Source of the DNA: Actinocorallia herbida
GTDB lineage: Bacteria; Actinomycetota; Actinomycetes; Streptosporangiales; Streptosporangiaceae
DNA: 64,000 bases
Assembly (NCBI RefSeq): GCF_003751225.1
Contig: NZ_RJKE01000001.1
Span: 6,138,001 to 6,202,000 of the forward strand
Direction of reading: 5' to 3'
In this document: one piece after another, positions 6,095 through 21,959 of the stretch
How the letters are laid out: each line of letters begins with the position of its first letter
How positions within the stretch are numbered: the first letter of the stretch is position 1
Position numbers and translations under genes: made by a program
Notes under the pieces: generated by a model
Databases searched by the model: none
What the model was told of the DNA's origin: nothing
Seen by the model: the letters and a program-made list of their open reading frames with translations, nothing else

Positions 6095-6124
6095 ACATTA
6101 ATGACAAATATCGTCTTATTTGAC
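6095..6124. promoter_or_regulatory. Operator copy A (two overlapping ACAn-N12-nTGT-type sites)
   Basis: Two overlapping semi-palindromes, 6095-6115 (ACAT...TCGT) and 6104-6124 (ACAAATA...TATTTGA), are offset by 9 bp. They lie in an AT-rich patch 15-44 bp before the enoyl-CoA hydratase-like gene. The layout matches the other copies in 9.9-22 kb. Confidence 0.5.
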
Positions 6125-6138
6125 TCAGGAGTGCACCC

Positions 6139-6888
6139 GTGGCCGAGCAGACTGTGCGCCTGGAGGCGCGCGACAACGGCGTCCGGCTGCTCACGCTGGA
6201 CGATCCGAGCCGGCACAACGCGATCAGCCTGCGCATGCGGGACGAACTGCTCGCGGCTGCGGACGCCGTGCGGTCGGATCCGGACGCGCGCGCCCTCGTC
6301 GTGACGGGCGCGGGCCGGTCGTTCTGCTCCGGCGCCGACCTTGCCGAACTCCTCGGCGGATCCCCGCCCGTCGGCGTGCTCCGCGACCGGCTGAGCGGTG
6401 TCTATCAGGGCTTCCTCACCCTGCGGGACCTGGAGATCCCCACGATCGCGGCGGTCCGCGGCCACGCCGTCGGCGCGGGACTGAACCTGGCCATGTGCTG
6501 CGACCTGCGCGTCGCGGCACCGGACACCCGCTTCAGCGCGACCTTCAGCCGGATCGGGCTGCACCCGGGCGGCGGCGCCACCTATTTCCTGGTGCGCGCT
6601 CTCGGCCGAGAGCGCGCGCTCGCCCTGCTGCTGTCCGGCGGCACGGTCACCGGCGAAGAGGCGGTCCGGCAAGGACTGGCGCTGGCGGTGCACGAGGATC
6701 CCCTGGCTGAGGCTCTCGCCATGGCGGACCGGTTCGCCGCCCTGCCCACCGCCCTGGCCCGAGACATCAAGCGCGCCGTCGCCCTCACCGACCACGGCCT
6801 GGAGGCGACCCTTTCCTTCGAGTCCTGGGCACAGGCGTCCACCGGCACCCTGCCAGAGGTCCTCACCGCCGCGACGCGAAGGCGATGA
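6139..6888 (+). CDS. Enoyl-CoA hydratase/isomerase (crotonase) family protein
   Basis: A 249-residue crotonase-fold protein. GTG start with a CAGGAG ribosome site. The CoA-binding oxyanion segments are present: GAGRSFCSGADLAELL near residue 57 and GHAVGAGLNLAMCCDLRVA near residue 112. The two glutamates that add water in classical hydratases are not at their expected places: PEI is replaced by FSRI, and the helix position reads RALALLLSG. It may therefore be an isomerase, thioesterase or C-C lyase of the superfamily rather than a hydratase. It is monocistronic, behind operator copy A and followed by a perfect bidirectional terminator. Confidence 0.88.
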   Translation: MAEQTVRLEARDNGVRLLTLDDPSRHNAISLRMRDELLAAADAVRSDPDARALVVTGAGRSFCSGADLAELLGGSPPVGVLRDRLSGVYQGFLTLRDLEIPTIAAVRGHAVGAGLNLAMCCDLRVAAPDTRFSATFSRIGLHPGGGATYFLVRALGRERALALLLSGGTVTGEEAVRQGLALAVHEDPLAEALAMADRFAALPTALARDIKRAVALTDHGLEATLSFESWAQASTGTLPEVLTAATRRR

Positions 6889-6915
6889 CGTGCGGGCGGA
6901 CGTGACCGCATGATG

Positions 6916-6951
6916 AAGGGGGCGGGAGCATCGAGATGCTCCCGCCCCCTT
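6916..6951. terminator. Bidirectional terminator, perfect 16-bp hairpin
   Basis: The arms at 6916-6931 and 6936-6951 are exact reverse complements around a CGAG loop. The outer pairs are AAGGGGG and CCCCCTT, so both strands end in a short T-run. It lies between the convergent genes ending at 6888 and 6968. Confidence 0.85.
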
Positions 6952-6967
6952 CGCTTCGCGCGCACGC

Positions 6968-8185
6968 TCAGGTGATGGTCCCGGCGTCCTTGTGCGCGAT
7001 GATCTCCTCCCAGGTCAGGCCCAGTTCCAGGAGCAGTTCCTCGGTGTGCTGGCCGTGATCGGGGGCACCGGCCGTCTGTGGCGGGGTCTCGTCGAACTGC
7101 ACCGGGTTGGCCGCGACGGACAGCGTGCGCCCGCTCGTCGTGACGACCTCGCGGATCAGTCCGTTGGCCCGTACCGCCGGGTCGTCGTGCACCTCCAGCG
7201 GGGTGCGCAGCGGCGACCAGACACCGTCGAAGTCCGCCAGCGCCTCCTCCCACTCCGCGAGGGTCCGGCTCATGAAGATCTCCTTGAGCGTCTGGGTGCA
7301 CTCGCGGGAGTTCGCCCCTCGCGAGGCGTGGTCGCGGAACCTGGGGTCGTCGGTCAGGTCGGGGCGGCCGAGGCACGCGGTGAACGAGCGCCAGTAGCGG
7401 TCGGACTGGAGCAGGGTGAGATTGAGGTGACGGCCGTCCGCGGTCCGGTACATGCCGACAGTCGGGTTGACCAGGTTCTCCGGGTCGTACCTGAAGACGT
7501 CCTCCCCCGGTCGCAGCGGAGCGGAGGCGACGTCGACCGATAGATTCCACAACGCGACGCCGAGCAGGGACACATCGACGACAGAACCTTCGCCGGTCCG
7601 TTCCCGGTTGAAGAGCGCGGCGGCGATCCCGCCCGCTATCGACAGGCCGCCCATGACGTCGCCGAAGGCCGAACGCATGCGCACGGGATAAGGGTCCTCG
7701 GGCGGTGAGACCGTGTACCCGATCCCCCCGCGGGCCCAGTAGGTCGAGGAGTCGAAGGCGCCCTTCTCGGCGTCCGGCCCGCGCTGCCCGTGCCCGGACC
7801 CGCGCACGTAGATGATCCTCGGGTTGCGCGCGCGGATGTCCTCGGCCTCGATCCCGAGGGCGCGGCGCGCAGCGGGCAGGAAGTTCGTCACGAACACGTC
7901 GCTCTGCTCGGCCAGGCGATAGAGCAGTTCCCTCCCCTCCTTGGACTTCAGGTCGATGCCGATGCTGCGCTTGCCGCGGTTGGGCACCTCCATCATGTAG
8001 TCGAGCCCGCCCTGCTCGGAGGGCAGGAATCCGGAGTTGACCAGGCCTCTTTGCGGGTCCCCGGTCACCGGGTGCTCGACCTTCACGACGTCGGCGCCCC
8101 ACTCGGCCAGCACCGCGCCGGCCGCCGGGACGAATGTCCACATGGCCACTTCCAGGACACGGACACCGGACAGTACTTCACTCAT
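6968..8185 (-). CDS. CaiB/BaiF family CoA-transferase (class III)
   Basis: A 405-residue family III CoA-transferase, which moves CoA between carboxylic acids or to an incoming acid. The N-terminal Rossmann part reads LSGVRVLEVAMWTFVPAAG and EWGADVVKVEHPVTGD. The conserved RGKRSIGIDLKS and VFVTNFLP strands follow, with the active-site aspartate in SAFGDVMGGLSIAGG near residue 173. It is the last gene of a three-gene operon with the FAH-family gene at 9938 and the SDR at 8961; its ATG overlaps the SDR stop (ATGA). It probably activates the acid substrate of the local pathway by CoA transfer. Confidence 0.92.
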   Translation of the reverse strand: MSEVLSGVRVLEVAMWTFVPAAGAVLAEWGADVVKVEHPVTGDPQRGLVNSGFLPSEQGGLDYMMEVPNRGKRSIGIDLKSKEGRELLYRLAEQSDVFVTNFLPAARRALGIEAEDIRARNPRIIYVRGSGHGQRGPDAEKGAFDSSTYWARGGIGYTVSPPEDPYPVRMRSAFGDVMGGLSIAGGIAAALFNRERTGEGSVVDVSLLGVALWNLSVDVASAPLRPGEDVFRYDPENLVNPTVGMYRTADGRHLNLTLLQSDRYWRSFTACLGRPDLTDDPRFRDHASRGANSRECTQTLKEIFMSRTLAEWEEALADFDGVWSPLRTPLEVHDDPAVRANGLIREVVTTSGRTLSVAANPVQFDETPPQTAGAPDHGQHTEELLLELGLTWEEIIAHKDAGTIT

Positions 8186-8961
8186 GGTTGCCTCTCAAGG
8201 AACTCGTCGGGATACGACCGCACGCTCAGCTCTCCGATGACCGATCCGCCTTCGCGGGTGACGGCGAAGAGCACGGCCTCGGCCACCCGTTCCGGCGGCT
8301 GCGCGGCCGAGCCCGACACCCGGGCCCGGAATCCGCCCTCCTCCCAGGCGAGGACCGCCCGGCGCAGCCGCTCGGGATCCCAGGCGTCCTTGAAGGTGGT
8401 CTCGGTCCGCCCGACCTTCAGCAGTGTGCAGCGGATGCCGTCGGGCCGCAGTTCGTGGGCCAGGCCCTCGGTCAGCCGTTCCAGAGCAGCCTTGGTCGCG
8501 GCGTAGACGAGCAGGTACGGGAAGGGGTCGGCACTGGACTCAGAGGAAAGGTTCACCAGGTGCGGGGACCTCGAGGCCCTGAGCAGCGGCACCGCCTCAC
8601 GGGTGGTGTAGAGGGGGCCGAGCAGGTTCGTGCCCACCTCTCGCGCCAGCTCCGCGTCGGTGGCCTCCTCGACCAGGTGCGGCTCGGCCATGGCCGCGTT
8701 GTTCACCAGGATGTCCAGGCCGCCGAACTCCGAGTGAACCAGGGCGAATGCCGCGCGGACGGCGGCCGGGTCGCAGAGATCGGCCGGGAGTGGCAGGCCG
8801 GCGGCGCCGAGCCGAGAGGCTGCGGAGTCCAGGTGCGGGCCCGGCCGGGCGAGCAGGCCGACGCGGGCGCCTTCGGCGGCGAGGGCGAGGGCGATCGCCA
8901 GCCCCGTCCCGCGCGACGCCCCGGTGACGACCGCGGTGCGGCCCGCCAGCACACCGGTCAT
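8182..8961 (-). CDS. SDR family NAD(P)-dependent oxidoreductase
   Basis: A 259-residue short-chain dehydrogenase. The nucleotide motif TGASRGTGLAIALALA is near residue 12, NNAAMAEPH near 90, catalytic Ser in LSSESS, and the YxxxK pair in VYAATKAALE. Starts at the ATG at 8961, which overlaps the stop of the upstream FAH-family gene; the longer open frame upstream is antisense shadow. Middle gene of the FAH-SDR-CoA-transferase operon. It likely oxidises or reduces a hydroxyl or keto group on the pathway intermediate; the substrate is not evident. Confidence 0.9.
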   Translation of the reverse strand: MTGVLAGRTAVVTGASRGTGLAIALALAAEGARVGLLARPGPHLDSAASRLGAAGLPLPADLCDPAAVRAAFALVHSEFGGLDILVNNAAMAEPHLVEEATDAELAREVGTNLLGPLYTTREAVPLLRASRSPHLVNLSSESSADPFPYLLVYAATKAALERLTEGLAHELRPDGIRCTLLKVGRTETTFKDAWDPERLRRAVLAWEEGGFRARVSGSAAQPPERVAEAVLFAVTREGGSVIGELSVRSYPDEFLERQP

Positions 8962-9938
8962 GCCGCCACCCAACGGTTGGCGAGAACGCCGAGCCCGTCG
9001 ATCTCCAGCTCGACCAGGTCGCCCGCCTGCGGATAGCGGCCCAGTTCCAGGCCGGAACCCCAGCCGACGGTGCCCGCGCCGATCACGTCGCCTGGCCGCA
9101 GCTCCTCCGCCCTGCTCAGGTAGCTCACGATCTCCGCAACCGAGTGGTGGATGCTGTCGGTGGAGCCCCGGCTCCACACCTCACCGGCCACTCGGGCGAC
9201 CATCGTGTGCGGTTCGGCCGGGTCCCAGGCATCGGCGGTGACGAGGTACGGGCCCAGGACGTTCCAGCCGTCGCGATCCTTGCCCTTGGCCGGCCCGAGT
9301 CCGCCGCGCATCTCCTTGAACTGCTGCCTGCGCTCGGAAACGTCGTTGAAGACCGTGTACCCGGCGATGTGCGCGGCGGCGCTTTCGGGAGGCACGTCGC
9401 GGCCCGCCCGGCCGATGACGATCGCGAACTCGAGCTCGTAGTCGAGGCGCTCGGCTCCCCGGGGGACGACGACATCGGCTCCGGTCCCCACCACCGAGCG
9501 CGGATTCCCCTTGTAGTAAACGGGCATCTCGTACCACTCCGCCGGGACGTTGCCCCTAGTGGAGTTCTTCACGTGCTGCTCGAACGCCGCACAGTCGCGC
9601 AGGGAGGGCGGTGAGGGCAGCGGGGCGAGCAGCCGGACCTCCTCATGTCGGTAGATGAGCCGGCCGCCGCCCGCGCTGAGCGCGTCCAGGGGGGCGTCGG
9701 TGAGGTCGGCCGCCCGGAGCACCGCCTCCCGGGCGGCTTCTCCGTTCGCCAGCAGGACGGCGAGGTCTGCCGGCACGAGGGCGTCCGCGATCGCCCTGGC
9801 CCGAGACCTGTCGACCCGTCCGGCGAGCGTGTGCGCGAACGCCAGGTTCACGTCGAGCAGATCACCCGCCGAGGTGACGATGCCGACCCTCCGCACCGGC
9901 CCCACCGGCGTCTCCACCTCGAATGTCGCGTATCGCAC
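8958..9938 (-). CDS. Fumarylacetoacetate hydrolase (FAH) family protein
   Basis: A 326-residue FAH-fold enzyme; the family hydrolyses C-C bonds of acylpyruvates or hydrates/isomerises 2-oxo-dienoates with a divalent metal. Visible signatures: PAEWYEMPVYYKGNP (about residue 135), metal ligands in LDYELEFAIVIGR, the aspartate in GYTVFNDVSERRQQF, and the C-terminal RPGDVIGAGTVGWGSG. First gene of the operon continuing into SDR and CoA-transferase. Operator copy B lies 16 bp upstream of the start. It resembles the FAH-family protein at 42329 more than the one at 11258. Confidence 0.92.
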   Translation of the reverse strand: MRYATFEVETPVGPVRRVGIVTSAGDLLDVNLAFAHTLAGRVDRSRARAIADALVPADLAVLLANGEAAREAVLRAADLTDAPLDALSAGGGRLIYRHEEVRLLAPLPSPPSLRDCAAFEQHVKNSTRGNVPAEWYEMPVYYKGNPRSVVGTGADVVVPRGAERLDYELEFAIVIGRAGRDVPPESAAAHIAGYTVFNDVSERRQQFKEMRGGLGPAKGKDRDGWNVLGPYLVTADAWDPAEPHTMVARVAGEVWSRGSTDSIHHSVAEIVSYLSRAEELRPGDVIGAGTVGWGSGLELGRYPQAGDLVELEIDGLGVLANRWVAA

Positions 9939-9953
9939 GACCCACCTTCCAGA

Positions 9954-9983
9954 ACATAAAGCGCAAATTATGTCTAATTAGTA
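9954..9983. promoter_or_regulatory. Operator copy B
   Basis: ACATAA-N8-TTATGT is a perfect 6-bp inverted repeat (9954-9973), extended by TAATTAGTA to 30 bp. It is upstream of the operon starting at 9938 on the minus strand. Spacing (ACAn-N12-nTGT) is the same as in the other copies. Confidence 0.6.
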
Positions 9984-10091: not shown

Positions 10092-10658
10092 TCAGGCCCG
10101 TGTCCTGGTGAGCCCCGGCACCGCGTGGTGGTGGTCTTCCAGCGGGACCCGCAGGGCCAAGGCCATCCGGGCCGCGCAGCAGTACCACGAGACCGTCATG
10201 AGGAGTTCCACCGCCTCGCGCGGGTCGACCAGCGAGACGAACTCCGCCCAGGTGGTGTCGGCCACGTCGGCATCGGCGACGAGGTCGTCGGTCAGCGCGA
10301 GGACGGACCGTTGCAGCAGCGTCAGGTCCGCGGGCGTTCCGCCGTCGCGCATGGCCTGGAGCACTCCCTCGGGTACCCCCGCTCGCAGAGCCGGCCGCCA
10401 GTGGCTGCGCCAGACGTAGTCGCTGCCCATGAGCGCCGAGACCCGGAGGATGGCCAGCTCGCGCAGCCCCCGGTCGGCGGCGGCGTCTGCGCGCAGGCTC
10501 CAGGCCAGGTCGAGCCAGCCGGAAAGGACCTCAGGTGCGTGGCCGAGCACCCGGTACATCTCCGGCAGGCCCCCCGCGAGTCCCGCCGCCTTGGCATAGA
10601 CCTCGGCGAGGCGGGGGTCGGTCCCGTCGTCGGTACGCGGGCCGAGCCGGCCGCTCAT
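10092..10658 (-). CDS. Carboxymuconolactone decarboxylase / AhpD-like protein
   Basis: A 188-residue all-helical protein of the carboxymuconolactone-decarboxylase/AhpD fold: GGLPEMYRVLGHAPEVLSGW, RELAILRVSALMGSDYVWRSHW, then a long helix with VLALTDDL and EFVSLVDPREAVELLMTVSWY. The AhpD CxxC pair is absent from the usual place (SDYVWRSHW), so it is not a peroxidase of the AhpD type. Its ATG overlaps the stop of the upstream VOC gene (ATGA), so the two form an operon. Such proteins are frequent in aromatic and steroid clusters with unknown exact roles. Confidence 0.82.
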   Translation of the reverse strand: MSGRLGPRTDDGTDPRLAEVYAKAAGLAGGLPEMYRVLGHAPEVLSGWLDLAWSLRADAAADRGLRELAILRVSALMGSDYVWRSHWRPALRAGVPEGVLQAMRDGGTPADLTLLQRSVLALTDDLVADADVADTTWAEFVSLVDPREAVELLMTVSWYCCAARMALALRVPLEDHHHAVPGLTRTRA

Positions 10659-11074
10659 CGCGGAGTCCTGACACAACGGCACAGGCCGGACTGGTGCAGC
10701 TCGATCAGGTCGCCCGACGGGTCTCGCACGAAGACCTGGCGGCGCTCGCCCCGGCCGACGTGCCAGTGCGGCACGCCCATCCGAACGAGGTCCTCGACGG
10801 CCTCCGTGATGTCCGGCACCCCGAACGCGAGGTGCGAGATGAACGGATCCCGGTCCGGCCGTGCCGCGTACCGGGACGTACCGGCCGCTCCGAACAGGTG
10901 GACCTGGACGCCGTTGGCGGCGTCCAGCCATTGGATCGGTATCCCCGGGACCTCAGGGGCGTCCGCGGCTTCCGCCAGCCCCAGAACGTCACGGTAGAAA
11001 TCGACGTGGACCGTCATCGCCTCCGGAGGCACCCGGAGAGCGCGGTGATGCAGTTCCAGCCCGTGCAGGGCCAT
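10655..11074 (-). CDS. VOC (glyoxalase/dioxygenase-like) family protein
   Basis: A 139-residue single vicinal-oxygen-chelate unit. It shows paired beta-alpha-beta halves: LHGLELHHRALRVPPE and DFYRDVLGLAEA, then PFISHLAFGVPDITEAVEDL and the ending VFVRDPSGDLIELHQ, whose last Glu and the His residues are possible metal ligands. The ATG at 11074 is chosen for its strong GGGGAGG ribosome site; the frame runs open to 11113. First gene of the VOC/CMD operon, downstream of operator copy C. Could be an isomerase, epimerase or small dioxygenase. Confidence 0.82.
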   Translation of the reverse strand: MALHGLELHHRALRVPPEAMTVHVDFYRDVLGLAEAADAPEVPGIPIQWLDAANGVQVHLFGAAGTSRYAARPDRDPFISHLAFGVPDITEAVEDLVRMGVPHWHVGRGERRQVFVRDPSGDLIELHQSGLCRCVRTPR

Positions 11075-11118
11075 CAGACCTCCCCTTTCGCCGCTCGGGC
11101 GACACACGATCACGACTG

Positions 11119-11148
11119 GACAATTTAGTCAATATTCGCCTTAACTGT
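11119..11148. promoter_or_regulatory. Operator copy C
   Basis: On the minus strand it reads ACAGTTAAGGCG...ATTGAC, then TAAATTGTC. It fits the same 21-bp core (11128-11148) and 30-bp extended layout as the other copies. It lies in the divergent promoter of the VOC/CMD operon (start 11074) and the FAH-family gene (start 11258). Confidence 0.5.
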
Positions 11149-11257
11149 TCATACTAGATCGGAGCAGCGCGCTAGGCGGCGGACCCGTCGATCACCCACC
11201 GGCCATGCGGCCGAGGTGTCGTCCGGCCCGCCCGGCGTCGAGATGAAGGAGCCGTTG

Positions 11258-12094
11258 ATGAAGATCGGAAGGTTCGCCGGGGAGAACGGCGCGTTCTGGG
11301 CCGTCCTGAACCTGGACGAGGGAACGTGCCGTCCGCTGGAAGGCGGGTTCTCCTCCTGGGCTCCCGCGCTCACCGGCGACCCCGGGTCAGCCGCCCGCCT
11401 GGCCGGGGAGCCGCAGCCGTTGGCCGGCCTGCGGACGCTGGCGCCCGTGGAGCCCACCGCGAAGATCGTCGCCGTGGGCGCAACGTACGCCAAGCATGTC
11501 GCGGGCCTGGGCCTGACCATGCCCGAGCGGCCCGCAGCCTTTTTGAAGCCCTACGGCTCACTGCTGGCGCCCGGCGCGGAGATCTCCTACCCGGCGCTCA
11601 CCTCGGCCCTCGATTACGAGGCCGAACTCGTCGCTGTCATCGGCGCCGCCTCCATCGACCGATCCGCGCCGAGCCGGAGTGTCCTGGGCTACACCGCCGG
11701 CAACGACGTCTCGGCGCGGGACCTCCAGTTCGGCGGCTCGGTCACCGGGATGGACATGTTCTCGGCCAAGGCGCTGGACGCCACGGGCGGAGTCGGCCCG
11801 TGGATCGTGACGCGTGACGAGTTCGGTGACGACCATCCCGACCTGGAGCTGCGCCTGACGGTGAACGGGGAGGTCCGGCAGTCCGACCGCACCTCCAGCA
11901 TGGCATGGGGGGTCGGTGATCTCGTCGAGTACGTCGAGGCCCGCAGTGCTCTGGCCTGCGGCGACGTCCTGTTCACCGGCACCTCCGCCGGTGTGGGCCA
12001 TGAGGACGGTCGCTATCTCGAACCCGGCGACGTCGTCGAGGTGACCATCGAGCGGATCGGCACGCTGCGCAACACGGTCGGTCCCCGCCCGTAG
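11258..12094 (+). CDS. Fumarylacetoacetate hydrolase family protein
   Basis: A 278-residue FAH-fold enzyme of the shorter type seen with 2-hydroxyhepta-2,4-diene-1,7-dioate isomerase and acylpyruvase members. Motifs: KIVAVGATYAKHVAGLG, metal ligands in LDYEAELVAVIG, GYTAGNDVSARDLQ, SMAWGVGDLVEYVE, LFTGTSAGVG and the end of the barrel EPGDVVEVTIERIGTLRN. The ATG at 11258 follows AAGGAG by six bases; earlier starts lack a site. It is monocistronic and divergent from the VOC/CMD operon under operator copy C. Confidence 0.92.
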   Translation: MKIGRFAGENGAFWAVLNLDEGTCRPLEGGFSSWAPALTGDPGSAARLAGEPQPLAGLRTLAPVEPTAKIVAVGATYAKHVAGLGLTMPERPAAFLKPYGSLLAPGAEISYPALTSALDYEAELVAVIGAASIDRSAPSRSVLGYTAGNDVSARDLQFGGSVTGMDMFSAKALDATGGVGPWIVTRDEFGDDHPDLELRLTVNGEVRQSDRTSSMAWGVGDLVEYVEARSALACGDVLFTGTSAGVGHEDGRYLEPGDVVEVTIERIGTLRNTVGPRP

Positions 12095-12101
12095 CCGGGC
12101 C

Positions 12102-12139
12102 GGGCCTGAGGAGACGTCCGGGAACGGCCCCTCAGGCCC
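12102..12139. terminator. Possible terminator between convergent genes
   Basis: GGGCCTGAGG (12102-12111) pairs with CCTCAGGCCC (12130-12139) over an 18-nt loop. It lies between the genes ending at 12094 (+) and 12132 (-). Confidence 0.4.
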
Positions 12140-12668
12140 CGAGGACCGGCGGAACGTCATCGTCGGCGTACGCGCGCAGCACGTGGGCGAGCCTGCCCGA
12201 GGCGACCATCTGTGCCGCGAACATGCCGAGTTCGACGATCTCCGGGACGGAGAAGTACCGGCCCAGCTCGGCCAGGTCGGCGTCCCCGATCCGGGTGTGG
12301 TCGAAGGCGAACGTCTCGGCGAAGCGCAAGGCGGCATCCTCCCGGTCGGTGAACCGGGAGCGGTCGGCCGACAGCGCCTGGACGTCATCCTCGGTGACGT
12401 CGTCGGATTTGCGCCCAGCCTTGCAGGCCCGGCAGTCGTTGATGTCGGCGATGCGGAGGCGGACCAGCTCCGCCAGCCGCCCGTCCAGGATGCGGCGCTC
12501 GTGCAGCGCGCGCAGGAGGGCCAGCTGGGCTTCGGCGAGCTCGGGCCGGTGCGCCCAGATGCGGACGGCGAGATCGCTGCTCAGCGCGCGGGACGCGCGC
12601 GCGGCCTCGATCTGCTCGCGCAGAACCGGACGCAGGTGCCGGTGCGGAACCGGGTCGATGGCAGGCAT
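12132..12668 (-). CDS. Carboxymuconolactone decarboxylase family protein
   Basis: A 178-residue helical CMD/AhpD-like protein. Core: AEAQLALLRALHERRILDGR, LAELVRLRIADINDCRACKAGR (a CxxC pair at about residue 79 but without the AhpD histidine three residues later), and AALRFAETFAFDHTRI, EIVELGMFAAQMVASGRL. The CxxC pair distinguishes it from the other CMD-like gene at 10092. Divergent from the 3-hydroxyacyl-CoA dehydrogenase gene, with operator copy D between them. Role unknown; may handle peroxide or act as a decarboxylase-like enzyme. Confidence 0.85.
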   Translation of the reverse strand: MPAIDPVPHRHLRPVLREQIEAARASRALSSDLAVRIWAHRPELAEAQLALLRALHERRILDGRLAELVRLRIADINDCRACKAGRKSDDVTEDDVQALSADRSRFTDREDAALRFAETFAFDHTRIGDADLAELGRYFSVPEIVELGMFAAQMVASGRLAHVLRAYADDDVPPVLGA

Positions 12669-14721: not shown

Positions 14722-15869
14722 CTCATCCCCATCGCTCGCGCGACGACGCCGCGCAGAATCTCATTGGTGCCGCCGCGCAGGGTGAAGCCGGGCGACATGA
14801 GGACGGCGTCGGCCAGGAGCCGCGGCAGCCCGTCGGTGGCGCCCGGATCGGGGCGCGCGTCGACGAGCAGCCGCGCGGCGTCGATGATCTCTTGTTCCAG
14901 CCGTGTGCCGAGGTCCTTCACCAGGGCCGCGGCCACCTCAGGCACCTCGCCGCGGTCCAGCGCCGCGGCCACGGAGATGGACAGGCGCCGGACCGTCCAG
15001 ACCCGCGAGACGAGTCGACCGAGCTCGGCCCGGCCCGTCCCCGCGTCCGCCAACGCGCCCACCAGTGCGGTGAGCAGTGGGAATGTCGAAAGGTACCGCT
15101 CCGGGCCGCTGCGCTCGAAGGCCAGCTCCGAGGTGGCCTGATTCCAGCCTTGGCCGATGACGCCGAGCACCATCTCGTCGGGCACGAAGACGTCGTCGAG
15201 CACCACCTCGTTGAAGTGGTGGGCGCCGTTGATGAGCCGGATGGGCCGGATCGTCACTCCGGGCGACCTCAGGTCGACGACGAACTGTGAGAGCCCGCTC
15301 TTGCGGTCCCGGCCTTCCGCGGGGGAGCTGCGCGCGAGGACGGCGAAGGCATGTGCGTGGTGGGCGCCGCTCGTCCACACCTTGGTCCCGGTGAGCCGCC
15401 AGCCGCCCTCTGCGCGAACGGCTCGCGTGCGGACCGCGGCCAGATCCGATCCCGCGTCCGGCTCGCTGAGGCCAATGGCGAAGAAGCACGTGCCCGCGGC
15501 GATGCCCGGCAGATACCGGGTCTTGAGCGCCTCGGTGCCGAAGTGGAGCAGGGCCGGCGCCGTCTGCCGGTCGGCGATCCAGTGCGCGGCGACGGGGGCG
15601 CCCGCGGCCAGCAGCTCCTCGGTGACGACGTAGCGTTCCAGCGCCGTCCGGTCATGTCCGCCGTAAGCACGGGGCACGGTCATGCCGAGCCAGCCACGCT
15701 CGCCCAGCCTGCGGCTGAACGCCTCGTCCCAGCCGGTCAGCCAGCTGTCGGAGCGGGGCCGGAAGGTCCCGGCGGCCAGCTCCTCGGCGACGAAGGCCCG
15801 TACCTCGGCCCGGAGCTGTTCCTCCTGCGGGCCCAGCCGGACGGCGCGGGGCACCAGTGCTGTGCTCAC
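14718..15869 (-). CDS. Acyl-CoA dehydrogenase family protein
   Basis: A 383-residue flavin enzyme. Signatures: GWLGMTVPRAYGGHDRTALE, FAIGLSEPDAGSDLAAVRTRA, GTKVWTSGAHHAHAFAVLAR, helix G LAFERSGPERYLSTFPLL and TLRGGTNEILRGVVARAMGM. In the last segment Gly replaces the Glu used by medium-chain enzymes; the base may be the Glu in helix G, as in isovaleryl- and steroid-type enzymes. GTG start at 15869, overlapping the stop of the enoyl-CoA hydratase gene (GTGA). Forms the likely heteromeric pair with the following 343-residue subunit. Confidence 0.93.
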   Translation of the reverse strand: MSTALVPRAVRLGPQEEQLRAEVRAFVAEELAAGTFRPRSDSWLTGWDEAFSRRLGERGWLGMTVPRAYGGHDRTALERYVVTEELLAAGAPVAAHWIADRQTAPALLHFGTEALKTRYLPGIAAGTCFFAIGLSEPDAGSDLAAVRTRAVRAEGGWRLTGTKVWTSGAHHAHAFAVLARSSPAEGRDRKSGLSQFVVDLRSPGVTIRPIRLINGAHHFNEVVLDDVFVPDEMVLGVIGQGWNQATSELAFERSGPERYLSTFPLLTALVGALADAGTGRAELGRLVSRVWTVRRLSISVAAALDRGEVPEVAAALVKDLGTRLEQEIIDAARLLVDARPDPGATDGLPRLLADAVLMSPGFTLRGGTNEILRGVVARAMGMR

Positions 15870-16642
15870 CGGCCCCTCCAGACCGGGCGCCGCTTCTCGG
15901 CGAAGGCCTGCGCGCCTTCGAGCGCGTCCTCGGACTCGCGCACCGGGTCGAGGATCGGGGCCTGCCGCTCGAACGCCTCGGCCTGCGGCCAGTCCTGGGA
16001 CTCGACCACGACGCGCTTGGACGCGGCGACCGCCAGCGGCCCGTTCTCGGCAATGGTCCCGGCCAGCGCCAGCGCGTCGGCCAGCGCGCCGCCGGGCTCG
16101 GTGAGCCGGTTGACCAGGCCAAGGTGCTCGGCCCGTTCGGCGCCGAACGGCTGTCCGGTGAGGATCAACTCCATCGCGACGTGGTAAGGGATACGACGCG
16201 GGAGCCGGAACAGGCCGCCCGCGCCCGCAGTGAGCCCGCGCTTCACCTCCGGCAGCCCGAAGACGGCGTTCCGGGAGGCCACCACCAGGTCGCACGCGAG
16301 CGCCAGCTCGCAACCGCCGCCGAGCGCGTAGCCCTCCACCGCGGCGATGATCGGGGTGCGCGGCGGCCGGGCGGCGATGCCCGCGAAGCCGCGTTCGGTG
16401 CGCGGCAGCGGCTGCCCGCCGGCGAATGCCTTCAGGTCCATACCCGCGCAGAAGGTCCCGCCGGCGCCGGTGACGACCGCGACCGCCAGGTTCGGGTCGG
16501 CGTCGAGCTCGTCCAGGGCCTCCCCGATCGACACCGCGGTCCGGTGGTCGATCGCGTTGCGCACCGCGGGGCGCTCGATGGTGATGGTCATGATGCCGCC
16601 TGTGGTCTCGACGAGCACCTGGTCCACTTTCAGGTCCCCCAT
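15866..16642 (-). CDS. Enoyl-CoA hydratase/isomerase family protein
   Basis: A 258-residue crotonase. Oxyanion segments GAGGTFCAGMDLKAFAGG (about 60-77) and GYALGGGCELALACDLVVA (about 105-123). Both hydratase glutamates are present: NAVFGLPEVKRGL and HVAMELILTG. Likely a true enoyl-CoA hydratase acting after the adjacent acyl-CoA dehydrogenase pair. ATG at 16642 with a GGAGGA site; 17 bases after the quinone oxidoreductase gene. The long upstream frame is shadow. Confidence 0.93.
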   Translation of the reverse strand: MGDLKVDQVLVETTGGIMTITIERPAVRNAIDHRTAVSIGEALDELDADPNLAVAVVTGAGGTFCAGMDLKAFAGGQPLPRTERGFAGIAARPPRTPIIAAVEGYALGGGCELALACDLVVASRNAVFGLPEVKRGLTAGAGGLFRLPRRIPYHVAMELILTGQPFGAERAEHLGLVNRLTEPGGALADALALAGTIAENGPLAVAASKRVVVESQDWPQAEAFERQAPILDPVRESEDALEGAQAFAEKRRPVWRGR

Positions 16643-16659
16643 GGGTCCTCCTCCGCCGG

Positions 16660-17640
16660 TCACGGCGCCATCTCGATGATGATCTTTCCTGCGGCCCGCC
16701 GCTCGGCGACGTCGCGAAGTCCGTCCGCGACCTTCTCCAACGGGTAGACGGCGGCCACGTGCGGGTCGATCCGCCCGTCCACGAGCATGCGCAGCACCTC
16801 GGCCCGGTGCGCCGGCGCCACTTCGGGCATCCGCTCCAGGATGGTGCGGTTCTCCACCCCCGCGATGGTCACGCCCTTCAGCAGGACCAGGTTCAGCGGG
16901 ATGCGCGGGATCTCCCCCGCCGCGAAACCCACGACGACGAAACGGCCGCCCGGGGTGAGCGCCCGCAGAGCGGGTTCTGAATAGGGGCCGCCGACGGGGT
17001 CCACGACGACGGCGGCGCGATCTCCGGTCAGCTCGCGGATCCTGGTCTTGAGGTCCTCGGTCCGGTAGTCCACGCACGCCTCCGCGCCCTTGGCACGGCA
17101 GAGTTCCAGCCGGTCCTCGCCGCCCGCGGCGGCCAGCACACGGGCGCCCATGGCGCGCGCGACGTCCACGGCGGCCAGGCCGACCCCGCCCGCGGCGCCG
17201 AGGACGACGACCCATTCGCCCGGGCTGACGCCGGCCACGGTGCGCAGCGCGTGGTAGGCGGTCGTATAGGTGACTCCGAAGGCCGCGGCCCTGTGCCAGC
17301 CGAGCCCGGCCGGGATCCGGGTCAGGCGCGCGGAGTCGATGACGATCTCCTCGGCGAACGCCCCGTGCGTTACCAAACCGATGACCGCGTCGCCGACGGC
17401 CGGACCCGACCCGTCAGGCGCGGCCGCGGTGACCACTCCGGCGAACTCACAGCCCGGTGTGTAGGGCACCGGGACCGAGACCTGGTATTTGCCGGCCATG
17501 ACGAGCACGTCCGGGAAGTTCACCGCCGCGGCGTGCACCCGCACCCTCGCCTGGGCGGACCCGTTCAGGGGCGCGGGAGCGACGTCTTCGACCACGACCT
17601 CGTCCGGAGAGCCATGGCGGTGTACACGGGCAGACCTCAT
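16660..17640 (-). CDS. NADPH:quinone oxidoreductase family protein (zinc-free MDR)
   Basis: A 326-residue medium-chain reductase of the quinone-oxidoreductase group. GroES-like N-terminus with VNFPDVLVMAGKYQ and TPGCEFAGVV, nucleotide motif VVVLGAAGGVGLAAVDVARA near residue 145, then VDPVGGPYSEPALR. No zinc-ligand cysteines. ATG at 17640 chosen because AAAGGAAGG precedes it; a GTG 15 bases upstream is inside that site. First gene of the four-gene operon reductase, hydratase and two acyl-CoA dehydrogenases, under operator copy E. It may reduce an enoyl or quinone intermediate. Confidence 0.92.
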   Translation of the reverse strand: MRSARVHRHGSPDEVVVEDVAPAPLNGSAQARVRVHAAAVNFPDVLVMAGKYQVSVPVPYTPGCEFAGVVTAAAPDGSGPAVGDAVIGLVTHGAFAEEIVIDSARLTRIPAGLGWHRAAAFGVTYTTAYHALRTVAGVSPGEWVVVLGAAGGVGLAAVDVARAMGARVLAAAGGEDRLELCRAKGAEACVDYRTEDLKTRIRELTGDRAAVVVDPVGGPYSEPALRALTPGGRFVVVGFAAGEIPRIPLNLVLLKGVTIAGVENRTILERMPEVAPAHRAEVLRMLVDGRIDPHVAAVYPLEKVADGLRDVAERRAAGKIIIEMAP

Positions 17641-17681
17641 CGGCCTTCCTTTCACGACGATCGACGATCATGCAATGAGGA

Positions 17682-17711
17682 ACAGATTACACATAAAATG
17701 TATAATTCGTC
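17682..17711. promoter_or_regulatory. Operator copy E (overlapping pair)
   Basis: ACAG-N12-ATGT at 17682-17701 and a second ACAT-N12-TCGT at 17691-17710 are offset by 9 bp, exactly as in copy A. It lies 42 bp upstream of the quinone-oxidoreductase operon start (17640, minus strand). Confidence 0.6.
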
Positions 17712-17915: not shown

Positions 17916-18587
17916 ATGCCCACCCCACCGAGCACGACCCCGCGGGGCGACGCCGACACCGTCGTCCGCATCCTGGACGGGGCCATGCGCGTCGCCGCCC
18001 GCAAAGGCATCCGGAAGATGTCCATGAGCGACATCAGCGAGAGTGCCGGCGTCTCCCGCGGCACCGTTTACCGGTACTTCCCCTCGAAGGACCACGTCCT
18101 CGGATCACTCACGAACCACGCGCTCCACCGGTGGGAGCAGCACATGCGCGCCGCCGTGGCGGCGCGACCGCGGGCCGCCGACCGGCTGCGCGTCGTCATG
18201 GACTCGATCGTGGGCTACGGGGAGGCGTGTCCAGAGGCGCTGGAGATCATCCGGCTCGACCAGGACCTGGGGCTGACCTTCCTGCACAGCTGCCTCCCCG
18301 ACACGGTTCGCATCATGGCCGATCTGCTGGAGCCGGTCATCGATGAGGCCGCGGTCGTACGCGCCCGGGTCATCACCGGTCCCGAACTGGCCGAGCTCGT
18401 GTACCGCATCGGACTTGCCGCCTTCCTCGTCCCGGCCACCCGAACCAAACAGCTCCCCCGGCGCGTCGCCGCCGTCTGGGACTTCCTCAACGGCGCCGCG
18501 CTCTCCGTTCATGGTGCGGACGAGGAGACCGGGGAAAGCCAGGCCGAGATCACCCAGTTCACAGGCGGGTCGCGCCGCCTGGCCTGA
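17916..18587 (+). CDS. TetR family regulator, first of a sister pair
   Basis: A 223-residue TetR protein. HTH at about residues 20-65: ILDGAMRVAARKGIRKMSMS, DISESAGVSRGTVYRYFPSK. The ligand domain includes RLRVVMDSIVGYGEACPEAL and ELAELVYRIGLAAFLVPATR. Its HTH is strikingly similar to that of the next gene (MSMSDISESAGVSRG versus FSMSDICEEAGISRG). With operator copy F in front and seven further copies at neighbouring operon starts, it is a leading candidate for the local repressor of the CoA pathway. The inducer would be a pathway CoA-thioester or acid (inference). Confidence 0.92.
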   Translation: MPTPPSTTPRGDADTVVRILDGAMRVAARKGIRKMSMSDISESAGVSRGTVYRYFPSKDHVLGSLTNHALHRWEQHMRAAVAARPRAADRLRVVMDSIVGYGEACPEALEIIRLDQDLGLTFLHSCLPDTVRIMADLLEPVIDEAAVVRARVITGPELAELVYRIGLAAFLVPATRTKQLPRRVAAVWDFLNGAALSVHGADEETGESQAEITQFTGGSRRLA

Positions 18588-18672
18588 ACCTCGCCAGCCG
18601 AGTCCCGCATCATCCGCCGGACCGTACGCTCGCCACGTCCCAGCATTCGGACAGGATCCAAGAGGAGCGACA

Positions 18673-18693
18673 CATAATTGACACAATTCGTCG
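18673..18693. promoter_or_regulatory. Operator-like site G (weaker)
   Basis: ACATAATTGACACAATTCGT has the ACAT-N12-TCGT half of copies A and E (16 of 21 positions shared with copy A). It lies in the 180-bp gap between the two sister TetR genes. Confidence 0.35.
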
Positions 18694-18734
18694 AATCCAT
18701 TGAAATGCTTTGACGCTCATCACAGCAGGAATGC

Positions 18735-18764
18735 ACAGTATCTACAGATAATGATGGTACTGTT
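18735..18764. promoter_or_regulatory. Operator copy H
   Basis: ACAGATAATGATGGTACTGT at 18744-18763 is ACAG-N12-CTGT. A further ACAGT half-site lies 9 bp upstream at 18735. It is immediately before the second sister TetR gene and would overlap its promoter or leader. Confidence 0.55.
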
Positions 18765-18769
18765 GATCA

Positions 18770-19372
18770 GTGACCTCAAGCACCGGGATGTCAGACAAGA
18801 TCATCGAGGGTGCCATGCGCGCCGTCGCCCGTTATGGCGTGCGCAAGTTCTCGATGAGCGACATCTGCGAAGAGGCCGGCATCTCCCGGGGCAGCCTGTA
18901 CCGCTACTTCAAGAGCAAGGAGCAGGTACTCGAAGCCGTCGGCGACCACGTGGAACGCGCCATCCGCGACACGCTGGTCACCGCGGTGGACACGAACCCC
19001 GAACCGGCGGCCCGCCTTGAGGTCGTCCTCCAGGCGATGCTCGACTACCGAACCGAGCACCCTGCGACGATGCAGCTCATCGAGGCCGAGCCGGCGTTCG
19101 CGCTGGAGCTCCTCACCCGGCAGGTCGGGATGCTGCTCAGCCTCGTCACCGATCTCCTCGACCCGGTGCTGCGCGACGCGCCGCCCATCCGCGACGGGTC
19201 CATGACCAAGCGGCAGCTCGCGGAGGTCTTCATCCGGCTGGTGCTGTCGGTCTACTTGATCCCCACCACCGGCTCGGAGGAGACCGCCAAGCGCGTCGCC
19301 GTCATGTGGCAGTCCATGACGGCGGCCTCAGCCCCCGCGGCCAAGCCGGGCCGGAAGCGTGCCGCCGGCTGA
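18770..19372 (+). CDS. TetR family regulator, second of a sister pair
   Basis: A 200-residue TetR protein with HTH DKIIEGAMRAVARYGVRKFS then DICEEAGISRGSLYRYFKSK, and ligand domain LEVVLQAMLDYRTEHPATMQ, VFIRLVLSVYLIPTTG. GTG at 18770 or the ATG six codons later (18788) may be the start; neither has a strong ribosome site. It sits head-to-tail with its sister gene and behind operator copy H. It ends nine bases from the convergent acyl-CoA dehydrogenase gene. The two regulators probably recognise the same operator family with different inducers. Confidence 0.9.
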   Translation: MTSSTGMSDKIIEGAMRAVARYGVRKFSMSDICEEAGISRGSLYRYFKSKEQVLEAVGDHVERAIRDTLVTAVDTNPEPAARLEVVLQAMLDYRTEHPATMQLIEAEPAFALELLTRQVGMLLSLVTDLLDPVLRDAPPIRDGSMTKRQLAEVFIRLVLSVYLIPTTGSEETAKRVAVMWQSMTAASAPAAKPGRKRAAG

Positions 19373-19381
19373 CCGCGCGGT

Positions 19382-20524
19382 TCACAGACCCATCGACTTG
19401 GCGATGATCACCTTCATCACCTCGCTCGACCCCGCGTAGATGCGGGAGACACGTGCGTCGGCGTAGGCGCGGGTGATCGGATACTCCAGCATGTAGCCGT
19501 AGCCGCCGTGCAGTTGCAGGCAGCGGTCGACGACCCGCCCCTGGAGTTCGGTGCAGTAGAGCTTCACCTTCGCCGCATCGTGGCCGGTGAGCCGTCCCTG
19601 TTCGTGGAGCAGGAGCGCGCGGTCGAGCAGGGCCTGCCCCGCCTCCACCTCGGTAGCGCACGCGGCCAGCTCGAACTTGGTGTTCTGGAAAGCCCCCACC
19701 GTGGTGCCGAATGCCTTGCGCTCGCGCACATAATCCAGTGTCGTGCGCAATGCCTGCGCCGCCGCGGCCTGGCTGTTCACCGCGATCGACAACCGCTCCT
19801 GCGCCAGGTTCGCCGTCAGGTACTCAAAGCCGCGGCCCTCCTCTCCGAGCAGGTTCTCGGCAGGCACTCGAACGTCGGTGAAGGACAGTTCCGTCAGGTC
19901 CTGTGCCTTGAGCCCCAGCTTCGGCAGATTGCGGCCCCGGTGGAATCCGGGCGTGTCAGCCTCGATGACCAGGAGGCTGATGCCCTCGCGGGTCCCCTCC
20001 GCGCCCGTCCGCACCGCAGTGATCACCAGGTCGGCGGACGAGCCGTTCGAGATGAAGGTCTTCGCCCCGTTGACGACGTAGTGGTCGCCTTCGCGGACGG
20101 CCCGGGTGGTGAGCGACTTGACGTCCGATCCCGCGCCGGGCTCCGACATCGCCAGCGCCGCGACCGCCTCACCCGACACCAGGCGCGGCATCCACCGCTT
20201 GCGCTGCTCCTCGGTGCAGTAGCGCAGGAAGTACGGCATGCAGATGTCGGTGTGCACCCGCAGCCCGCCCAGCGCCACCCCCGCCGCCTGGCACTCCTCG
20301 GTGAGGATCACGTTGAGCAGGAACGTCTCCGCACCGCTGCCGCCGTACTCCTCCGGGATCTGCAGACCGAGCAGGCCGAGTTCGCCCGCCCGCCGCCAGA
20401 AGTCCCGCGGCGGTGCCCCGGCGGCCTCCCAGGCCGCGTACTCGGGGACGATCTCCTCGCGGTAGAAGCGGGCGACGACCTCCCGGAAGTCCTCGTGCTC
20501 CTCAGCGAAGACCATGCGTTCCAT
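19382..20524 (-). CDS. Acyl-CoA dehydrogenase
   Basis: A 380-residue acyl-CoA dehydrogenase. Motifs: FAEEHEDFREVVARFYREEI, LQIPEEYGGSGAETFLLNV, ALAMSEPGAGSDVKSLTTRA, NGAKTFISNGSSADLVI, LGLKAQDLTELSFTDVRVP, REAFG-like RERKAFGTTVGAFQNTKF and QLHGGYGYMLEYPITRAYAD. The canonical Glu before GT is Ala here (RIYAGSSE), and helix G carries LAQERLSIA, as in long-chain/isovaleryl-type enzymes where that Glu is the base. ATG at 20524 is preferred for its AAAGG site. Third gene of the operon with the amidohydrolase and a small protein. Confidence 0.95.
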   Translation of the reverse strand: MERMVFAEEHEDFREVVARFYREEIVPEYAAWEAAGAPPRDFWRRAGELGLLGLQIPEEYGGSGAETFLLNVILTEECQAAGVALGGLRVHTDICMPYFLRYCTEEQRKRWMPRLVSGEAVAALAMSEPGAGSDVKSLTTRAVREGDHYVVNGAKTFISNGSSADLVITAVRTGAEGTREGISLLVIEADTPGFHRGRNLPKLGLKAQDLTELSFTDVRVPAENLLGEEGRGFEYLTANLAQERLSIAVNSQAAAAQALRTTLDYVRERKAFGTTVGAFQNTKFELAACATEVEAGQALLDRALLLHEQGRLTGHDAAKVKLYCTELQGRVVDRCLQLHGGYGYMLEYPITRAYADARVSRIYAGSSEVMKVIIAKSMGL

Positions 20525-20573
20525 ACCGTCCAGCCTTTCGATCATGACCACCTGTACGGGGTTCCCAGCCTTT

Positions 20574-20783
20574 TCACGCCCCGCCATCCGTGCGGGTGAA
20601 GCGCGCGTCGGCTCTCTTGAGCGCTTCCAGGCGACGGTTGAGGCTTTCCCTCCGCGGACCCGCCGAGGTCTCCAGGAGCCGCTCCGTCTCGCGGATCTCA
20701 TCGACCACCCGGGCGCGGGCCTCCTTGATCGTCAAAAGGTCCGCTTCGTCGGCGAGCGGGTCGTGCTCGGCGTCGCCGGCCAT
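20574..20783 (-). CDS. Small uncharacterised helical protein
   Basis: A 69-residue, highly charged protein: ATG at 20783 two bases after the amidohydrolase stop. The central part LTIKEARARVVDEIRETERLL and RRESLNRRLEALKRADARF is strongly helical and could form a coiled-coil hairpin. No known motif. Its tight position between amidohydrolase and acyl-CoA dehydrogenase genes argues it is real and translated with them. It may be a small stabilising or partner subunit; I do not recognise it. Confidence 0.65.
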   Translation of the reverse strand: MAGDAEHDPLADEADLLTIKEARARVVDEIRETERLLETSAGPRRESLNRRLEALKRADARFTRTDGGA

Positions 20784-20785
20784 GC

Positions 20786-21916
20786 TCAGTTCTCCAGCCG
20801 GAAGACGTGGCGCGCGTTCAACTCGGCGATGGCCTGCGCCTCGGCGTCGGGCACATCCGCCATGGCCTCGGCGAGGATCTTCCTGCTGTTCGGCCACATG
20901 GAGTCGGAGTGCGGGAAGTCCGCCTCCCACATGATCCGGTCGATGCCGATCGAGTGGCGCAGGTCCACGCCGACGCCGTCGACGATGAAGCAGCCCCAGA
21001 TGTTGCGCCGGAACAACTCGGAGGGACGGACCTCCTGGTTGATGTCCTGCCAGAAGCGCTGGCGCTCCCACGTGTGGTCGGCGCGCTCCAGGAGGTAGGG
21101 CATCCAGCCGATACCGCCCTCGGCCAGGGAGACGCGCAGCTTCGGGTGCCGGTGGAAGACCGGGGAGAAGCACAGGTCGACCAGGGCCTTCATCGAGTTG
21201 AGGCCCATCAGCGAGATGAACGTCGCCTCGGGGGCATCAGGGGCGGTGAACGGGCGGGTTCCGGACGTCCCGAAGTGCAGGGACAAGGGCACGTCGACCT
21301 CTTCGACCGCGCTGAACAGCGGGTCCCAGTGGTCGGTGTGGAAAGACGGGAGCCCAAGAGGCGCGGGGCTCTCGATGAAGCTGACGCCCTTGGCGCCCAG
21401 TCCGACGGTCCGGCGCAACTCCGCGACGCTCGCCTCGACGTCCCAGACCGGCAGGATCACCTGCGGGATCAGCCGGTCGCGGTCGACGGCGCTCCACTCG
21501 TCGAGGATGAAGTCGTTGTACGCCTGGACGCAGCGCAGCGCGAGGCCCTTGTCCTCGCCCTCCAGGAACAGCGTGCCGGCGAACCTCGGGAAGGAGGGGA
21601 AGCACAGCGCGGCGTAAACGCCGTCCACATCCATGTCCTTGAGGCGCTCGGCGGGGTCGTAGCAGCCGGGCATCATCTGGTCGTAGCGGACCGGATCCCA
21701 GCCCCACTCCCGCGGATCCTTGCCCGCCACCGCGTTGAGCCCGATAGCCGGGTAGATGCGGCCCTCGTACGTCCAGACCTGGTGGCCCTTCTCGTTCTCG
21801 ATGATCCGGGGCCCGGCCTCGCGGTCCTTGGCCGACAGCCGGTCCTCCCACACCCGCGGGTGCTCGATCAGGTGGTCATCAACCGAGATCAGCTTCATGT
21901 GGTCCTGAAGAGGCAT
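20786..21916 (-). CDS. Amidohydrolase family protein (amidohydrolase-2 type)
   Basis: A 376-residue TIM-barrel amidohydrolase of the group that includes ACMSD and gamma-resorcylate-type decarboxylases. MKLISVDDHLIEHPRVWEDR carries the first metal-binding strand (DDHxxE in place of HxH), then VYAALCFPSFPRFAGTLFLE, PLSLHFGTSG (metal His), SLAEGGIGWMPYLLERADH and IMWEADFPHSDSMWPNS (metal Asp). These proteins decarboxylate or hydrolyse ring acids, often with Zn or Mn. First gene of the three-gene operon behind operator copy I. Start at ATG 21916; an internal ATG at 21898 is possible. Confidence 0.9.
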   Translation of the reverse strand: MPLQDHMKLISVDDHLIEHPRVWEDRLSAKDREAGPRIIENEKGHQVWTYEGRIYPAIGLNAVAGKDPREWGWDPVRYDQMMPGCYDPAERLKDMDVDGVYAALCFPSFPRFAGTLFLEGEDKGLALRCVQAYNDFILDEWSAVDRDRLIPQVILPVWDVEASVAELRRTVGLGAKGVSFIESPAPLGLPSFHTDHWDPLFSAVEEVDVPLSLHFGTSGTRPFTAPDAPEATFISLMGLNSMKALVDLCFSPVFHRHPKLRVSLAEGGIGWMPYLLERADHTWERQRFWQDINQEVRPSELFRRNIWGCFIVDGVGVDLRHSIGIDRIMWEADFPHSDSMWPNSRKILAEAMADVPDAEAQAIAELNARHVFRLEN

Positions 21917-21938
21917 CCCACTCTCCCGTCGCAGTTAA

Positions 21939-21959
21939 ACAGATTTAACAGTTTTTGTA
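21939..21959. promoter_or_regulatory. Operator copy I
   Basis: ACAGATTTAACAGTTTTTGT spans ACAG-N12-TTGT and lies 23 bp upstream of the amidohydrolase operon start (21916, minus strand). The surrounding 40 bp are markedly AT-rich. Confidence 0.55.

Follow-up and report, generated by a model that had tools for sequence, protein, structure and literature searches.

A 29-bp repeat with four half-sites is the probable shared operator of sister TetR repressors in a catabolic gene cluster of Actinocorallia herbida

We analysed a stretch of 64,000 nucleotides from Actinocorallia herbida (hereafter the window: positions 6138001–6202000 of a 9.8-Mb single-contig genome; GC content 68%) in which a repeated AT-rich element accompanies the genes of a coenzyme A (CoA)-linked catabolic cluster at 6–22 kb. 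The best explanation of this 29-bp repeat is that it is the operator of the sister TetR repressors encoded in the cluster itself, a local and self-regulating system with one operator in common; we consider this reading probable, binding and repression being predicted from the sequence. The identity of the operator, its architecture, its confinement to the cluster and its conservation with related TetR genes across phyla are established in the analysis. The original prediction, made from the letters of the window, had proposed a local TetR regulon with a common operator that includes both TetR genes of the window, and this is strongly supported by the confinement of the operator in the genome and by its conservation in a second genus and a second phylum, where related TetR genes accompany it.

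All sites listed in that prediction are present in the window sequence and, in their 29-bp form, the nine window operators start at 6095, 9954, 11120, 12693, 17682, 17845, 18672, 18735 and 21939, each with a called gene start at a distance of 7–70 bp (starts called, not proven). The spacing ACAn-N12-nTGT, described as exact throughout, holds in six of the nine (9954, 12702, 17682, 17854, 18744 and 21939) and fails in three, 6104 ending in TGA, 11129 beginning with TCA and 18672 ending in CGT. Two positions had to be corrected, as the 20-mer placed at 11128 begins at 11129 (29-mer at 11120) and the site placed at 18673 begins at 18672. A second half-site offset by 9 bp had been noted for several sites: the offset is right, but the doubling is the rule and not the exception. 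Candidate −10 boxes overlap several operators, among them TATAAT in 12693–12721 and TTGACG-18-TATAGT at 21939; these sigma-70-like boxes were read without a shuffled control.

The operator unit is a 29-bp array of four half-sites, approximately TGAACAGAT, rather than a 20-bp palindrome with occasional doubling. Its half-site is about T-G/A-A/G-A-C-A-G-A-T; two forward copies 9 bp apart are followed, after 8 bp, by two reverse copies that are again 9 bp apart, the distances being those between conserved C or G residues. When 16 operators from the A. herbida region were aligned with 17 from Streptomyces sp. WM6386 (see below), a conserved C or G stood at positions 1, 10, 18 and 27 of the 29-mer; conservation was concentrated at the half-sites, and a fifth half-site, looked for in these 33 aligned operators, was not found. 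Among matrix matches that score at least 0, overlapping pairs (within 30 bp) had an offset of exactly 9 bp in 14 of 16 cases for the A. herbida 64 kb and in 13 of 13 for Streptomyces contig NZ_JXTE01000025. Because overlapping sites had trained the matrix, part of the 9-bp signal in the own genome is built in; the Streptomyces count represents transfer. The offset-9 pairs and the four half-sites together give the operator the two overlapping dyads that characterize QacR-type operators. Half-sites were scored with a matrix that omitted the operator concerned and were called good above the 95th percentile of shuffled half-sites; all four were good in 12 of the 33 operators and at least three in 29, with mean scores of 5.0, 6.0, 5.6 and 5.5 across the four positions (inner vs. 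outer, Wilcoxon p = 0.42). An early idea, one operator class for each of two TetRs (ACAGAT and ACATAA types), was dropped because a single 29-mer can account for both types as overlapping registers.

The main matrix used against chance had 37 columns and was built from the nine window operators only, with 359 kb of the own genome in 18 stretches as control. In leave-one-out scoring, all nine held-out sites exceeded every one of the 359,352 control positions, and no other window match reached the score of the held-out site; with all nine sites included (the nine-site matrix), the control maximum was 9.8 in the own genome and 3.5 in Streptomyces (199,640 positions). An equal match rate in random AT-rich DNA had been named beforehand as an observation that would speak against the regulon. 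The comparison was run and did not refute it: at a score of at least 10, none of 821 AT-matched 37-mers in the own-genome control matched, vs. 10 of 314 in the window at 6–22 kb (the nine sites plus a shifted register at 11129), and a further AT-matched control gave 0 of 241. Two hundred column-permuted matrices yielded a mean of 0.15 and a maximum of 2 matches in the 6–22 kb section, vs. 10 for the real matrix. An earlier symmetric 20-column matrix recovered all eight of its sites when each was omitted in turn, with 0–7 matches in 400 kb of the own genome and none elsewhere in the window; in its full form it gave six background matches of at least 10, all in two stretches directly upstream of the window, the first sign of a larger regulon. 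A sequence-only profile of 18 sites and 24 columns recovered just 3 of the 18 and was too weak for searching, so plain matrices and degenerate patterns were used instead. One position in the own-genome control (12431 of stretch L023; 12.8 with the 33-site matrix) was not counted as an operator.

Across the whole 9.8-Mb genome, the pattern ACANWWWNNNNNNWWWNTGT without mismatch placed 7 of its 7 matches (per strand) in 6110–6160 kb and, with one mismatch allowed, 19 of 32 (backward-read control, 17). The corresponding counts were 15 of 19 for a 20-mer RY pattern (control, 4), 14 of 15 for the 29-mer pattern with up to two mismatches (control, 2) and 7 of 20 for a first-guess pattern (control, 7). 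The sensitivity of these patterns is not independent, as they were drawn from the sites themselves. The only off-cluster match of the 29-mer pattern, at 7316309–7316337, has an IclR-family gene at a distance of about 300 bp (match 7315528–7316007, minus strand) and may itself be an IclR operator, one that resembles the cluster operator in its half-site.

The claim that the sites occur only in this section is correct within the window but not in the genome: the regulon continues upstream of the window for roughly 28 kb, which contain eight further operators and bring the total to 17 in 50 kb. Seven of the upstream operators score at least 10 with the nine-site matrix (6110142, 6119107, 6126819, 6128438, 6134539, 6134694 and 6136506) and the eighth, 6124778, scores 8.8. 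Genes at or near them encode a thiolase-like protein, cytochromes P450, a ferredoxin reductase, an aldehyde dehydrogenase, short-chain dehydrogenases/reductases (SDRs), a BphC-type extradiol dioxygenase together with an amidohydrolase, a CoA ligase and a thiolase, a Rieske dioxygenase, a VOC protein and a zinc dehydrogenase. Operator variants resembling ACACAT...ATGTGT were seen at 6119107–6119135 (13.1) and 6119371–6119399 (8.1, nine-site matrix), between a P450 and a ferredoxin-reductase gene.

Three sister TetR genes of one subfamily are found in the genome, all of them among the operators. Operators do stand at both sisters of the original prediction, tetR1 and tetR2 of the window, but there is a third, tetR3, with a probable start at 6134815, some 3.2 kb before the window begins; operator 6134694 lies immediately upstream of tetR3, and operator 6134539 lies in the interval between it and a P450 gene. 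Each of the three thus has a palindromic operator near its own gene, as is usual in the TetR family (17845; 18672 and 18735; 6134694). In a whole-genome search with a subfamily profile, in which 150 of 340 candidates were scored, the sisters reached 354, 319 and 306 bits and the next best 73 bits among the 100 matches listed. The TetR_N domain (curated cut-off 24 bits) scored 60.5 bits in TetR1, 59.9 in TetR2 and 44.8 in TetR3; the KstR equivalog NF033703 (cut-off 280) gave 50.1 bits for TetR1 and 26.5 for TetR2, both below the cut-off. A monomer model of TetR1, built without DNA, is all-helical with a TetR fold (mean predicted local distance difference test score, pLDDT, 77), and among its 50 best listed Foldseek matches are LuxR/HapR-type, FadR-type and KstR-type proteins as well as other TetRs (template-modelling (TM) score about 0.4–0.7). 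The fold matches being so mixed, a CoA thioester is no more than a plausible guess for the ligand. The recognition-helix core SRG[TS][VL]YRYF is common to eight TetRs of the A. herbida, Streptomyces and plasmid regions. No member genome beyond the two known came from a TetR1 search of 3 genomes of the genus and 297 of the order, nor from a four-sequence subfamily profile run on 396 genomes of the phylum and 392 of Streptomyces, with 7–10 candidates scored per genome in the 297-, 396- and 392-genome searches; a TetR1-peptide scan of 84,980 genomes returned one locus (L006).

The second of these genomes allows comparison across genera. Contig NZ_JXTE01000025 of Streptomyces sp. WM6386 carries three TetR counterparts (55, 63 and 46% identity), each nearest to a different sister, and shares 34 reciprocal best hits with the A. 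herbida region in changed gene order, in mixed identity classes from 29 to 82%, the lowest at 31%. The nine-site matrix found 17 places scoring at least 10 on this contig vs. 0 in a 200-kb control, and 7 of the 8 matches of the 29-mer pattern in the whole Streptomyces genome fell on it; a loose form of the pattern gave 319 forward matches, below the 524 of the control, yet pointed to the same contig. Among the 34 reciprocal best hits, an operator was present in Streptomyces at 9 of 15 genes that have one in A. herbida, vs. 4 of 19 that do not (one-sided p = 0.024), a comparison blurred by operon structure and uncertain starts. The fumarylacetoacetate-hydrolase (FAH) counterpart pair 48958–49938 was scored as being without a Streptomyces operator since the called frame is too long and operator 56078 falls inside it.

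Comparison with another phylum, through plasmids of marine and soil bacteria, extends the association further. Of 72,556 plasmid records, 5 contain relatives of tetR2 (E up to 1e-12), and the same 5 also contain relatives of the Rieske protein of the cluster (E up to 1e-80). In each of three plasmids, Novosphingobium resinovorum pSA2 and two from Croceicoccus marinus, there is a single TetR match to the subfamily (33–36% identity) and, over the stretches that were scanned, a single strong operator. This operator is located at the promoter of a Rieske dioxygenase operon and scores, in that order of plasmids, 25.4, 26.4 and 26.4 by the 33-site matrix and 16.9, 20.6 and 20.6 by the nine-site matrix. 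The Rieske gene run of the Novosphingobium plasmid and of the annotated Croceicoccus plasmid also encodes an SDR (53–54% identity to the A. herbida one) and the TetR, so that in these two the operon appears to include tetR; the second Croceicoccus record (L074) is unannotated. Among called frames of the A. herbida region with matches in the plasmid stretches, TetR was the only kind of regulator. The operator is assigned to these TetRs mainly because TetR lineage and operator covary. With the 33-site matrix alone, the best scores were 11.2 and 9.0 in Novosphingobium L066 and L067 and 11.1 in Croceicoccus L072. A Massilia position (L065 15525; 9.6 and 11.3 in two scans) was neither counted nor dismissed. 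Not counted were Massilia L071 32806 (14.5 with the 33-site matrix), as a reversed control reached 14.8 on L070, and Croceicoccus L068 34376 and 34709 (12.0 and 12.7, nine-site matrix), which lie in an AT-rich gap. No operator was found in a Streptomyces sp. NBC_00080 plasmid stretch that has a 64% identical amidohydrolase homologue and a TetR of another type. In Novosphingobium pSA2 (L066, L067) and Croceicoccus pCME4A9I (L072) we also observed the coenzyme F420 genes cofC, cofD, cofE, cofH and npdG near related catabolic genes, together with genes for F420-dependent oxidoreductases; to our knowledge, F420 biosynthesis genes are unusual in alphaproteobacteria.

The genes and operators of the window at 6–22 kb are as follows (operators without strand):
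6095–6123: operator, 29 bp, upstream of the enoyl-CoA hydratase gene 6139–6888
6139–6888, plus strand: enoyl-CoA hydratase/isomerase family gene
6968–8185, minus strand: family III CoA-transferase, 82% identical Streptomyces counterpart
8182–8958, minus strand: short-chain dehydrogenase, open frame reaches 9177
8958–9938, minus strand: FAH-family gene, presumed lead gene of the operon behind operator 9954
9954–9982: operator, 16 bp from the called start of the minus-strand gene 8958–9938
10092–10931, minus strand: carboxymuconolactone decarboxylase-family gene, true start uncertain
10655–11113, minus strand: glyoxalase/VOC gene
11120–11148: operator between divergent VOC and FAH genes
11216–12094, plus strand: second FAH-family gene
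12132–12668, minus strand: gene weakly like peroxidase-related/YciW proteins, below curated cut-offs
12693–12721: operator between two divergent genes, containing TATAAT, a possible −10 box
12753–13637, plus strand: 3-hydroxyacyl-CoA dehydrogenase
13690–14721, minus strand: acyl-CoA dehydrogenase-type gene
14718–15866, minus strand: acyl-CoA dehydrogenase, open frame longer
15866–16651, minus strand: enoyl-CoA hydratase, open frame longer
16660–17655, minus strand: PIG3-type NAD(P)H quinone oxidoreductase, presumed operon lead gene
17682–17710: operator, the sole mismatch-free match of the 29-mer pattern in the genome
17845–17873: operator upstream of tetR1, left outer half-site poor
17916–18587, plus strand: tetR1, Streptomyces sp. 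WM6386 counterpart at 55%
18672–18700: first operator before tetR2, upstream of that gene
18735–18763: second operator before tetR2, upstream of that gene
18770–19372, plus strand: tetR2, Streptomyces sp. WM6386 counterpart at 63%
19382–20701, minus strand: acyl-CoA dehydrogenase
20786–21916, minus strand: amidohydrolase-2 family gene, presumed lead gene of the operon behind operator 21939, 82% identical Streptomyces counterpart
21939–21967: operator, 23 bp from the called start of the minus-strand gene 20786–21916

Judging by its gene content, the cluster may degrade a polycyclic or aromatic acid, with hydroxylation of the ring, extradiol cleavage and CoA-linked beta-oxidation as the steps. 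The operator-bearing section is followed by IS630-type and Mutator-type transposase genes (23477–25271) and then by a PaaX-type repressor gene (26027–26896). On its other side, at 1893–6031, a gene for an Lrp-type regulator is divergent from one resembling indolepyruvate ferredoxin oxidoreductase (IOR); the pair has no operator, is matched by counterparts at 67 and 70% in the Streptomyces cluster and is probably a separate control unit.

If the repeat is the operator of the cluster's own TetRs, then in the absence of inducer TetR molecules would fill the array, probably as two overlapping dimers by analogy with QacR, and would shut off the promoters that overlap or adjoin it, those of the tetR genes and of some dozen catabolic transcripts. 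Release would come from an intermediate of the pathway, perhaps a CoA thioester, and cluster and regulators would be switched on together. Which TetR binds, repression rather than activation, the stoichiometry, the ligand and the division of labour among the three TetRs are what we infer in this scheme.

Several observations weigh against it. Conservation of the operator at counterpart genes is clear but not complete: none lies near the start of the Streptomyces tetR3 counterpart, the tetR1 counterpart has a weak one only (31251; below 8 with the nine-site matrix), and the IOR-type gene 2534–6031 is kept in the Streptomyces cluster, yet without an operator. The Massilia and Caulobacter plasmids show no clear operator, though the recognition helix of their TetRs is the same or nearly the same (SRGTFYRYF, SRGTLYRYF); these TetRs are more distant than those of Novosphingobium and Croceicoccus. 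Within the array itself, four of the 33 operators have only two good half-sites, and the conserved triplets of each 20-mer lie 17 bp apart, which is wide for a single TetR dimer.

How the three TetRs divide one operator among them can be read in two ways. We tentatively suggest that three anciently diverged paralogues, which stayed together despite extensive gene rearrangement, all read the same four-half-site operator. The two dimer positions of an array might then be filled in mixed combinations, and one operator would integrate three different pathway intermediates for the whole cluster. The other possibility, that only one of them reads it while the other two bind elsewhere or are auxiliary, their genes being mere members of the regulon, fits the Novosphingobium and Croceicoccus loci, where one subfamily match is paired with one strong operator; it is rather unlikely given that the paralogues are kept as counterpart pairs in two genera, that their recognition-helix core is common and that the inner and outer half-site tables look alike. 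A similar doubt attaches to a single dimer on the inner repeat TGAACA-N5-TGTTCA, with outer half-sites that weakly bind further dimers and no defined two-dimer complex. The 17 bp of the inner repeat equal the length read by single TetR-type dimers (15–17 bp; PMC4150764) and the overlapping 20-mers place the triplets 17 bp apart, but the outer half-sites are, on average, conserved as well as the inner ones, and we regard this arrangement, too, as on the unlikely side.

An origin in another regulator family, such as IclR, was weighed because the half-site resembles that of the IclR group-2 consensus TGRAACA-N1-2-TGTTYCA (PMC13273656), and the one off-cluster match of the 29-mer neighbours an IclR-family gene. 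It is highly improbable, since none of the 28 IclR_C matches in the genome (E up to 1e-5) lies within 6110–6160 kb and the published consensus, at up to three mismatches, meets no operator of the A. herbida region (in Streptomyces, one match near a candidate, 34461 beside 34444); nor is an IclR gene annotated in the Novosphingobium and Croceicoccus stretches, L074 being unannotated. That the repeats are merely promoter-associated AT-rich DNA or degenerate remnants of mobile elements, as their composition and their placement where promoters are expected might suggest, is hardly credible, being already contradicted by the matrix and AT-matched tests (0/821 and 0/241), by conservation that sits at the half-sites and by recurrence of the operator at counterpart genes of a rearranged cluster.

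Cumulatively, conservation over four genera and two phyla assigns the operator and its regulon to this TetR subfamily, with about 17 promoter regions predicted to respond together. Our literature searches found no description of the TetR subfamily, the operator sequence, the fixed 9-8-9 array or the conserved trio. Probes of 29 bp could serve to find the inducer and, through it, the compound on which this rare ring-degradation pathway acts. The trio, conserved beside one operator type, would offer a natural test of how paralogous repressors share sites while keeping their functions apart, and two-dimer binding could be tested on the four-half-site array.

KstR and KstR2 are TetR repressors of large steroid-CoA (cholesterol) catabolic regulons. 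Both are among the many fold matches of the TetR1 model, and TetR1 scores 50 bits against the KstR cut-off of 280. For FadR-type TetRs (Bacillus subtilis, Thermus thermophilus, Sulfolobus), several acyl-CoA-bound structures and that of Sulfolobus FadR on DNA are among the 50 best listed Foldseek matches (TM about 0.41–0.69); the likeness is non-discriminating, as unrelated LuxR/HapR-type matches have the best E-values and sequence identity is 15–26%. EdcR of Caenibius tardaugens (PMC8700777) is a TetR-type repressor within an estrogen cluster whose predicted operator overlaps −10 boxes, and that cluster likewise holds P450, extradiol dioxygenase, IOR and CoA-pathway genes. It differs in having one TetR and four promoters, and its operator TnnCnnTACnAnTnGTAnnGnnA (same source), at up to three mismatches, gave two matches in the A. 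herbida 64 kb, neither at an operator, and five on the Streptomyces contig, of which 85147 is near but outside operator 85068–85096. The principle of two dimers on one operator is already known from QacR-type proteins and DarR. DarR of Mycobacterium and Rhodococcus (PMC10636190) is a TetR-family dimer of dimers on overlapping palindromes with three to four half-sites; its 20-bp operator TAGATACTCCGGAGTATCTA is unrelated in sequence and its ligands are c-di-AMP and cAMP. QacR, CgmR, Ms6564 and CprB, dimer-of-dimers TetRs with operators of 22–32 bp read by two dimers (PMC4150764), share the long operator. Compared with these, the A. herbida system has a different operator sequence, a fixed 9-8-9 array of four half-sites in 33 operators and a setting in a catabolic cluster with about 17 operators.

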